DNA of 51,689 nucleotides, taken from contig JAHEYJ010000005.1 of the NCBI GenBank assembly GCA_023251675.1, positions 1-51,689 on the forward strand, read 5' to 3'. Every line of letters starts with the position of its first letter. Position 1 is the first letter of the stretch. Source of the DNA: Bacteroidota bacterium. Lineage in GTDB: Bacteria > Bacteroidota > Bacteroidia > Palsa-948. Positions 1,541 through 5,504 of the stretch are shown piece by piece. Below the pieces are notes generated by a model. The model searched no databases. It had not been told where the DNA came from and worked only from the letters and a program-made list of their open reading frames with translations. A program made the position numbers and the translations under genes.

Positions 1541-1552
1541 TTTTTTTCCTTA

Positions 1553-2794
1553 TTAAGCTATGGCTGATTTTTCTTTCACGTTTTGCTTATTCGTCATGTT
1601 CCGGCTCATGAACTTTTTGAATTTTTCCAACCCTTCCCGAATTTCTTTTTCATCAATTCCTGAATAAGCAAAACGTATATAAAAGTTTTTCTCTCCCGGA
1701 AGTACCTTCCCGAAATGCTGGCGCGTGCAAAATGAAACACCGGTGTTATGCAAAACATCTTTACGGAAAGTTTCGTAGTTATCGTAGCCATTCATTTTCA
1801 TGGCTTCGGTCACATTGGGGTAGAGATAAAAAGTGGCATGGGGCCGGTAGCAATGCACTCCGGGAATTGAATTCAGAATATCAACGGCTACATCTCTTCT
1901 TTTTTTCAGGACACCAAGCATGTCTTTCTCTTTCTTTTCAGAAGCAGCCATCCCTTCAATAGCTCCGTACTGAATGAAGTGGTTGGAGCAGGATTCGTTG
2001 TTCACATTTAATTTTGCGATCACATCAATGATCTCTTTCGGACCAATCGCAGCGCCCAGTCGCCATCCGGTCATTGCAAATTTTTTGGAGAACGTGTAAA
2101 GGATTAGCGTGCGTTCCGCCATTCCCGGCAGGGAAGCGATAGATTTGCTCAATCCTTCATACCGCATATCGAAATAGGCTTCATCGCTGAGTACGATCAG
2201 ATTATGTTTTTTGGCAAGGTTGGCAATGGCTCCATGTTCTTCAGGTGAACATTCTGCACCGGTTGGGTTATGCAGATTATTCAGGATAAAGAATCTGGTT
2301 CGGGAAGTTATTTTTTTCTCAATAGCATCCAGGTCAAGAATAAAATTTTCCTTTCCTTCAGAATATGAATAGGGCACAGCAATACCTCCATTGAATTCAA
2401 TTTGTGATTCATAGATCGGATAACCGGGATTCGGATACAGTACTTCATCGCCGGGATTCATCAACGCAAGAAAGAATTTCGTGATCACCGGCTTTCCGCC
2501 GGGCTGAATCGCCACATTATCCATTGTATAATTTGTCCCGCGCGCCGCATTGATATCGGCAGCGATCACTTCGCGGAGTTTTGGAATTCCGGCAGTCGGG
2601 CAATAACCGGTTTTTCCATCGCGGATCGCTTTCATGGATCCTTCCACTACCGAGGAAGGAGTAGAAAAATTCAGATCACCCAGGTGGAAAGGATATATTT
2701 TATTTCCCTTCGCTGCAAATGCCGCTGCTTCTGCCGAAACAGCAAAAGCTGTTTCTGTTCCCAGCAATTTAATTCTGTCTGCAATTCGTACCAT
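1553..2794 (-). CDS. Class I/II PLP-dependent aminotransferase
   Basis: Fold-type I aminotransferase of 413 residues. It carries the full PLP core: NLHNPTGA (residues 173-180), SDEAYFD (203-209) and TFSKKFAMTGWRLG, where Lys237 should form the Schiff base and Arg246 should bind the substrate carboxylate. The sequence resembles aspartate/LL-diaminopimelate-type aminotransferases, but the substrate cannot be set from sequence alone. It follows the split transketolase by 9 bases on the same strand and is probably co-transcribed with it. The last 20 residues, rich in Asn and Lys, look like a non-conserved tail. Confidence 0.88.
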   Translation of the reverse strand: MVRIADRIKLLGTETAFAVSAEAAAFAAKGNKIYPFHLGDLNFSTPSSVVEGSMKAIRDGKTGYCPTAGIPKLREVIAADINAARGTNYTMDNVAIQPGGKPVITKFFLALMNPGDEVLYPNPGYPIYESQIEFNGGIAVPYSYSEGKENFILDLDAIEKKITSRTRFFILNNLHNPTGAECSPEEHGAIANLAKKHNLIVLSDEAYFDMRYEGLSKSIASLPGMAERTLILYTFSKKFAMTGWRLGAAIGPKEIIDVIAKLNVNNESCSNHFIQYGAIEGMAASEKKEKDMLGVLKKRRDVAVDILNSIPGVHCYRPHATFYLYPNVTEAMKMNGYDNYETFRKDVLHNTGVSFCTRQHFGKVLPGEKNFYIRFAYSGIDEKEIREGLEKFKKFMSRNMTNKQNVKEKSAIA

Positions 2795-2803
2795 ATTATT
2801 TTA

Positions 2804-3199
2804 TTAATAAGTTAAAGTTGCTTTTTTATTTTTCTCTTTCAGGTATCCAAGAATGGCTTTGAACTGGCCTTCTCCGTTCAGGCCTGCTTCTTCGATCACG
2901 CTTTCCGCTTTTCCGCTTCCAAGAAAATGACCTTTCTTGAAAGGATACAACGAATGTTTTCTTCCAGCAGAAGATTGTATCCATCGGTACAAAGTCGGCA
3001 ATGTGAAACCGGTGATTCCCATGGCTACGCGCGCGATCTCTTCCGGAAATATTTTTTCCTGCTCTTCTTCTGAAAGCATATCGAATAACTCCACACTGGC
3101 GATATAATAAACGGCTACATCAATTTTTTCTTCCAGCAACATGGGCAGTGTTTGCTCAACAAAAGCATACGCCGCTTCGCTTCCCTGAAGAACGATCAC
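2804..3199 (-). CDS. Transketolase C-terminal domain, separated from the main body by an in-frame TGA
   Basis: 131 residues in the same reading frame as the preceding transketolase body, separated from it only by one TGA codon (3200-3202). The first residues, VIVLQGSEAAYAFVEQ, match the start of the third (C-terminal) domain of transketolase-like enzymes, and the rest keeps features of that domain (VAVYYIASVELFDML, then TLYRWIQSSAGR). GTG directly after the stop could serve as a restart codon. With the stop read as one residue, the whole protein would be 801 residues. Either the gene carries a fresh nonsense mutation or sequencing error, or the domain is made by readthrough or reinitiation. 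The domain itself shows no other damage, which argues against old decay. Confidence 0.8.
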   Translation of the reverse strand: MIVLQGSEAAYAFVEQTLPMLLEEKIDVAVYYIASVELFDMLSEEEQEKIFPEEIARVAMGITGFTLPTLYRWIQSSAGRKHSLYPFKKGHFLGSGKAESVIEEAGLNGEGQFKAILGYLKEKNKKATLTY

Positions 3200-5209
3200 T
3201 CAATCCGGACTTTCTTTTTCTGATTTTCTCAACAGATACATTCCTTTCGCTGCGTCTGAAGCCGGGGCAAGTCCAAGTTTTTTCCGGTCGATGATTTTTT
3301 CATTCGGTCGTGTCACAAATGGACAGATCACAGCCGGACGTTTGCTCAGTGCTGCAGAAACCACATACCACATTTCCTGCGGATCCCAAGGCGTAAGGGT
3401 AACAGAAGTTCCTTTCGGAAAATTTTCCTGCATCAGTTGTAATGGCTGCGGATCGGCATGTGTGGGGCCGTCTTCACCGGTTTTAATTCCCGCGTGAGCG
3501 CAAATCAAAAAGAAAGGATTGTACGGATTATTTACAATGGCGTGCTTTGACTGCCCGCCAATGGCGTGAAGCCGTGCCGGGATATGCCCAAGGGCGGCGA
3601 TGAATGCGCCGTACGACGAGCAAACACCGATGTGATGGCCGTAGGCCGATACGCCTGTCATGACGCCTGCCATTGCATCTTCGCAAATTCCGCCGATAGA
3701 TAAAGTACGTGACTGAGGATTTGTTTCTGCATTATAAAACCCGGCTCCAAAATCCTGTCCAACTAAATTCACGCTGGTTGATCCTAAAAGATCGGCTGCA
3801 GCAGTAAGAATGGCTCCACCGCTTTGTTTGTTATAATACTGCAATACTTTTCCTAATTCTGCCCGAAGGGTGCTTGATGATCCGATTTTTAACTGAAGAG
3901 ATACGGGAGGATTTGCTGAAGATGCTGAACCCTGCCCGTCCGGAAGGCAGGCAAGTTCAGCATAGATTTTTGAAACATCCGGATTATTTGCACGGGGTTT
4001 CCTGTCAAGTTTATCGAGGCGATCTTTTGCGCTGATGATATGTTCAGCAAGAGAAAGAGTCAGTGCTTTATTCTTTTCAAAAATTTCTCTTGCCACTAGC
4101 AACGTATCCCAATAACATTGCTCCAGTACGGTTGGATTTGACCCGCTGTTGCATTTTTCATCACCGAGACATTGTTTCAGGCCTTTTCCCGCCAGGTCAT
4201 AAAGTGGTTTTAACGCATTGTAATATTCAGTACTGCACAAACCATGTCCGCCGCCGTGTGATTTCTTTCCTTCAATGCCGTAGTTCCAGCCTTTGATCGT
4301 TTTGTAAACAATAGCCGTTGGCTGATTATTTTTTATTGTCATCGCTTTATTTTGCGCTGCAAACACCTGCTGAAAATCTTTTCCGTCGTTCACCATGATC
4401 ACATTCCAGTCGTGCAAATAAGCCAGTTCGGCCGGATTCCACTGCACATAATCGCCGGGTTTGGAGCCGTCGTTGCAAACATTATCCGAATCGATGGAGG
4501 CCTGGTTCCAGTCAATGTGCATAATCAGGTTTTTCAGGCAAGCTGTTCCTGCTGCCGCCATTGCTTCACTAACGCGGCCGGGGGTTAATCCACCTTCTCC
4601 TTCCACAATATGAATTACAGGAGCATTTTTTCCGTAATAATCCGCAGCACCAAATGCAAGCCCGATGGAAGAAGCATCACCCACTCCGGATGCGCCGGTT
4701 GAAAGTCGAAGGAAAGGTGTCGCTGGAGTAGGATGGCCATCCAATGCTTTTGATTTAAATTTTCTGAACAACGGAGTATTGTGAACCGGATTTCTTCTGA
4801 AGCCCAGAAGATCTTCCAGACGCAAGCGGTATTTTTCGTCTTTGGGAAGAAGATGCGGTGCAGCTATGCGCATGATCTCATCGCGCAGCGCCCAGTGAAC
4901 ATATAATCCTAGTGCTTTATGTCCTGCAGCGTAGGAAACTATGTCTGCTTCATCCCGGTCAGGGAAAGTAAAATCATAAAGAAGTGAATGATAAAGAAGA
5001 CCGGTTACAATCCTGCCCGATGATATGGATCCTCCCGGATGCCCGGAGAGAGGAGTAAAATTATAAAGCACCGCGCACAGCGAACGATAGATGGCATCAA
5101 ATGTTTCAAATGATTTTAATGCCGATGGGGATAGGGGTAATTCGTTTTCCGAAAATACAGACGGGATGACCGAATATACTGCGCGCCTGGGACTAAAAGA
5201 GACATTCAT
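3200..5209 (-). CDS. Transketolase-like ThDP enzyme, N-terminal and pyrimidine-binding domains
   Basis: Thiamine-diphosphate enzyme of the transketolase family, expected to move two-carbon units between sugar phosphates. The N-terminal PP domain has LSGHPGGSISSGR, an AAGHKALGLY segment and the Mg/ThDP motif GEGGLTPGRVSEA...DWNQASID (GEG where most have GDG). The pyrimidine domain has GGICEDAMAGVMTG, whose Glu is the expected cofactor-activating residue, and AHAGIKTGEDGPTHADPQ. At 669 residues it stops exactly at the linker to the C-terminal domain, which continues in frame after a TGA. It is the first gene of a leftward operon with the C-terminal fragment and an aminotransferase. A TATCTTTG box at 5257-5264 is its likely promoter. 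The longer-than-usual form fits the long Bacteroidota-type transketolases. Confidence 0.88.
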   Translation of the reverse strand: MNVSFSPRRAVYSVIPSVFSENELPLSPSALKSFETFDAIYRSLCAVLYNFTPLSGHPGGSISSGRIVTGLLYHSLLYDFTFPDRDEADIVSYAAGHKALGLYVHWALRDEIMRIAAPHLLPKDEKYRLRLEDLLGFRRNPVHNTPLFRKFKSKALDGHPTPATPFLRLSTGASGVGDASSIGLAFGAADYYGKNAPVIHIVEGEGGLTPGRVSEAMAAAGTACLKNLIMHIDWNQASIDSDNVCNDGSKPGDYVQWNPAELAYLHDWNVIMVNDGKDFQQVFAAQNKAMTIKNNQPTAIVYKTIKGWNYGIEGKKSHGGGHGLCSTEYYNALKPLYDLAGKGLKQCLGDEKCNSGSNPTVLEQCYWDTLLVAREIFEKNKALTLSLAEHIISAKDRLDKLDRKPRANNPDVSKIYAELACLPDGQGSASSANPPVSLQLKIGSSSTLRAELGKVLQYYNKQSGGAILTAAADLLGSTSVNLVGQDFGAGFYNAETNPQSRTLSIGGICEDAMAGVMTGVSAYGHHIGVCSSYGAFIAALGHIPARLHAIGGQSKHAIVNNPYNPFFLICAHAGIKTGEDGPTHADPQPLQLMQENFPKGTSVTLTPWDPQEMWYVVSAALSKRPAVICPFVTRPNEKIIDRKKLGLAPASDAAKGMYLLRKSEKESPD

Positions 5210-5256
5210 GATTTTCTATTCAAAAATTGATAATAAAAAAGTTTTTCTCAGCCGGA

Positions 5257-5264
5257 CAAAGATA
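5257..5264 (-). promoter_or_regulatory. -7 box TATCTTTG for the transketolase operon
   Basis: Matches the Bacteroidota housekeeping -7 consensus TAnnTTTG on the minus strand, with TTTA (5285-5288) 20 bases upstream as a possible -33 element. It lies 47 bases before the transketolase start. Confidence 0.65.
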
Positions 5265-5430
5265 TAATTATCTTTCCCCGCATTTAAATATGTATTCGGA
5301 TATTTTTAGGATGCAGGTCAAAAATAAGCTCGTATCATAGCAATCTATTCAACTTGTTCCCGCGATGCTGAAAGAGTCCCGAAGTTTGTATTAAATGGCC
5401 AACAACTTTATCCAATTTGTCAAAGAAAAC

Positions 5431-5438
5431 TACCTTTG
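5431..5438 (+). promoter_or_regulatory. -7 box TACCTTTG for comM
   Basis: Exact match to TAnnTTTG, with TTTA (5407-5410) 20 bases upstream as a possible -33 element. The comM start is 66 bases downstream, so this transcript would have a real leader. Confidence 0.65.
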
Positions 5439-5504
5439 ACTCCGACAGGAAGGGAAAAGGATTCTCTTCGTTCCTAGATACCAACTCAAAACTAACCTAT
5501 CGCC

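Follow-up and report, generated by a model that had tools for sequence, protein, structure and literature searches.

An in-frame TGA in an accessory transketolase-type gene of a Bacteroidota bacterium, very probably an ordinary nonsense change or an assembly error

Transketolases comprise 620-700 aa and share the domain order PP-Pyr-TKC. Split-gene versions of the enzyme are also known, and in that of Carboxydothermus hydrogenoformans the cut lies between the PP and Pyr domains (PMC7661550). In-frame UGA codons occur in bacterial selenoproteins; selB and selC together are the signature of selenocysteine (Sec) decoding, and selD and ybbB have been described as neighbors in organisms without Sec (Romero et al., PMC1273633). 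Genes interrupted by an ordinary nonsense change, or by an error in the consensus sequence, were compared as well. Here, we analyzed a stretch of 51,689 nucleotides (GenBank contig JAHEYJ010000005.1, our contig C115; hereafter the window) of the Bacteroidota assembly GCA_023251675.1, which amounts to 3.41 Mb in 250 contigs and is 96% complete.

A transketolase-type frame and its single TGA

The minus-strand frame running from position 5,209 to 2,804 of the window is open apart from one TGA at positions 3,200-3,202. This codon, corresponding to position 670 when read through, separates a body of 669 codons (3,203-5,209, minus strand), which bears the thiamine-diphosphate-binding and pyrimidine domains, from the remainder of the C-terminal domain (2,804-3,199, minus strand), which has 131 codons and starts with GTG. 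A preliminary description of the window had already regarded the two parts as one transketolase frame split by the TGA alone, and we found its coordinates and frame to be right: the joined read-through product could be aligned over its whole length, across the stop, with 13 uninterrupted homologues (~780-795 aa; 51-70% identity). In the Pfam search, both Transketolase_N (PF00456) and Transket_pyr (PF02779) matched the 669-codon body above the cut-off. The best PDB matches were transketolases throughout, regardless of whether they were sought by sequence or by the fold of an AlphaFold2 model (mean pLDDT of 70.6, based on a shallow alignment). Among the 182 columns invariant in the other homologues, the body deviated at just two. 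Judging from the PP and Pyr domains and the invariant residues retained in the sequence, the product most likely belongs to the transketolase-type ThDP enzymes. Nevertheless, it differs from transketolase in its size of ~800 aa and scored far below every NCBIfam transketolase cut-off. We regard the large transketolase as a member of a divergent paralogue family, which is scattered over several phyla, apparently uncharacterised, and travels with an aminotransferase.

The stop had been placed at a domain boundary, but this turned out to be not exactly the case. Transketolase_C_1 was reached by the joined protein alone (27.6 bits against the Pfam cut-off of 27; residues 656-730), and neither a Pfam nor an NCBIfam model matched the 131-codon tail on its own. 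As the Pfam domain starts at residue 656, the stop resides ~14 residues inside it. In the AlphaFold2 model, the first strand of the C-terminal domain spans residues 657-661 and residue 670 opens the strand of residues 670-675. Thus, a tail begun at the GTG would be without the first strand of the domain.

The 13 full-length homologues comprise a single sequence from the same class (G013, ~70% identity, the closest relative), four from elsewhere in the phylum, and eight from MAGs of other lineages, and none of them contains an internal stop. When we ran the alignment with relatives that had been recommended as a check, a sense codon was found at the stop position in all 13: Cys (TGC) in the closest relative, Gly (GGC or GGT) in ten, Ala in one, and Val in one. 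The earlier expectation of Gly holds for these ten homologues but not for the closest relative. The proposed origin of the TGA from GGA found no support, as GGA was absent from the aligned position of every homologue; TGA is one base away from TGC and two bases away from GGC or GGT. The variability of this position implies that no special residue is required there.

The portion downstream of the stop is as conserved as the portion upstream. Both the body and the tail showed an identity of 70.2% to the closest relative, with differences by codon position of 25/14/57% and 22/15/54%, respectively, and none of the 18 tail columns invariant among the other homologues was broken. No consistent excess, which would indicate an acceleration of this lineage, was found in relative-rate counts with four outgroups. 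Since the tail has not drifted, three explanations remain: a very recent stop, a sequence error, or continued translation of the tail. An old pseudogene was rejected, as the tail displays no decay.

Genomic setting and a second premature stop

In five genomes of the same genus, serS, gmhA, and the comM/yifB gene follow one another directly. In the genome studied here, ~3.9 kb containing an aminotransferase gene and the transketolase-type gene lies between gmhA and comM, and comparison with the neighbors in the five genomes puts the extent of this inserted two-gene cassette approximately at 1,541-5,504. The class I/II aminotransferase gene (1,553-2,794, minus strand) is directly downstream of the transketolase-type gene. 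In the closest relative, these two genes are likewise neighbors (73% identity for the aminotransferase), and an aminotransferase gene is also adjacent in several distant relatives. On the other hand, the transketolase-type gene was absent from all six same-genus genomes examined. These arrangements suggest that the pair is an acquired cassette. Similar pairs of an aminotransferase and a large transketolase were also observed at the loci L235, L032, L033, L035, L036, and L038.

The genome also carries the split transketolase typical of the genus, of which the N-half is interrupted by an assembly gap of 10 Ns alone. This gap (L107, G000:C234 ~3080) mimics a frameshift plus a stop, and the apparent stop in the N-half was rejected on this ground. 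The loss of the sole transketolase was likewise rejected. As the split transketolase exists in the same genome, the accessory gene is probably dispensable.

Besides the TGA, a second premature stop was found outside the window, namely a TAA at G000:C5:11107-11109 (L207, minus strand) in an otherwise intact gene for an MBL-fold hydrolase. The corresponding residue is Glu in five of the six genus orthologues and Ala in the other. No further mid-gene stop was detected in a screen of ~0.74 Mb against genus orthologues, in which four flags were raised: a single natural C-terminus accounted for two of them, and the other two looked like antisense frames on inspection. The assembly is thus not grossly error-prone. 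A separate screen for nonsense-split genes by codon usage discriminated weakly and was swamped by antisense frames, and the MBL-fold hydrolase gene was its one confirmed case. To yield two cases in 0.9 Mb, errors or fresh changes would have to number only ~5 per 100 kb, a rough estimate that stems from an incomplete screen and assumes that ~4% of random sense-codon substitutions make a stop. The two stops differ in codon (TGA and TAA), which argues against anything specific to TGA.

Alternative readings of the TGA

We consider it very probable that the TGA is an ordinary nonsense change or an assembly error in an accessory transketolase gene acquired together with the aminotransferase gene. 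Horizontal transfer would have brought a full-length gene for a transketolase-type protein of ~800 residues and the downstream aminotransferase gene, and the former would then be interrupted by a single-base nonsense change. The change may be a real mutation that struck a dispensable accessory gene very recently, or it may be a one-letter consensus error, or the trace of a strain mixture, in a draft assembly of the metagenome type. The consensus alone does not separate the two. If the TGA is real, translation would end at residue 669, leaving a protein that lacks the larger part of its C-terminal domain. We infer in which direction the change went and how recent it is, as well as the dispensability of the gene and the effect on the protein. 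A fresh mutation or assembly error was among the options of the preliminary description, and it agrees with the intact relatives, the unchanged tail, the second nonsense, and the dispensable-looking nature of the inserted gene. Among the features tested, there was no difference from an ordinary nonsense-interrupted gene or consensus error: a single stop, the rest of the frame intact, the relatives intact, and a further instance in the assembly.

What counts against the nonsense change or error is that the orthologue screen gave no other mid-gene stop and that an unchanged tail is also the pattern expected of a tail that is still translated. The body could end at the TGA, with stop-start reinitiation at the neighboring GTG producing the C-terminal domain as a second protein, which would yield a functional split enzyme as suggested earlier. 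The GTG directly follows the TGA and opens an intact 131-codon frame of normal conservation; moreover, split transketolases exist (PMC7661550), and the genus of this genome has one. As in C. hydrogenoformans, the work of a single chain could in principle be shared between two polypeptides. However, the interruption here falls inside the C-terminal domain, leaving the first strand on the other piece, and not between the PP and Pyr domains as in the known split transketolases, and it is found in one copy only, with no homologue (0 of 13) split at the position. We thus judge reinitiation to be unlikely. Within the literature searched, no decisive evidence emerged on whether transketolase is active when its C-terminal domain is missing. 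To our knowledge, no transketolase split within its C-terminal domain has been described previously; if true, the body and the C-terminal domain would reassemble as two proteins into an active enzyme with such a split.

The tail could also be translated through the TGA. The frame is open on both sides of the stop and the tail is conserved, as programmed or suppressor readthrough without selenocysteine would predict, but this is very unlikely. None of the 39 tRNA matches in the genome has the UCA anticodon, tRNA-Trp being of the CCA type; no downstream recoding structure was found beyond chance (z of about +0.3), and no Rfam family in the window; the stop is shared with none of the 13 homologues; and the other nonsense found in the assembly is a TAA. 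The reassignment of UGA and a suppressor tRNA were rejected, as no tRNA able to read UGA was found, in agreement with the earlier view that many genes here normally end in TGA and the code is unchanged. Programmed readthrough, another of the earlier options, finds no support, given the same tRNA set together with the lack of Sec machinery, of an RNA structure, and of a conserved residue.

Two hints point to the insertion of selenocysteine, namely the alignment of the TGA with the Cys codon (TGC) of the closest relative, which is the classic Sec/Cys pattern, and the presence of SelD in the genome (431 bits). We regard it as exceedingly improbable even so. SelA had no match in the 96%-complete genome. 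No SelB exceeded the cut-off, and the best match (183 bits) was to a frame of 402 codons, the size of EF-Tu, that is surrounded by tRNA genes. No tRNA-Sec was found above the cut-off either, the best candidate being a tRNA-Leu. The predicted fold of the RNA downstream of the TGA was no better than those of shuffled sequences (z of +0.32 to +0.35), leaving no SECIS-like structure, and Cys is present in only one of the 13 homologues. SelD adjoins MnmH, a tRNA 2-selenouridine synthase, implying that SelD serves the selenouridine of tRNA; the two genes are adjacent at L100:2277-4422 (G000:C108). Selenium use in this genome thus appears to be selenouridine only, and Sec decoding is strongly, albeit not absolutely, ruled out by gene content, within the limits of a genome that is 96% complete.

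Single stops are ordinary in the accessory genes of draft genomes and carry little weight alone. The locus also calls for caution, because a TGA aligned with Cys in a genome bearing selD mimics a selenoprotein until selA, selB, selC, and the neighbor of selD are checked.
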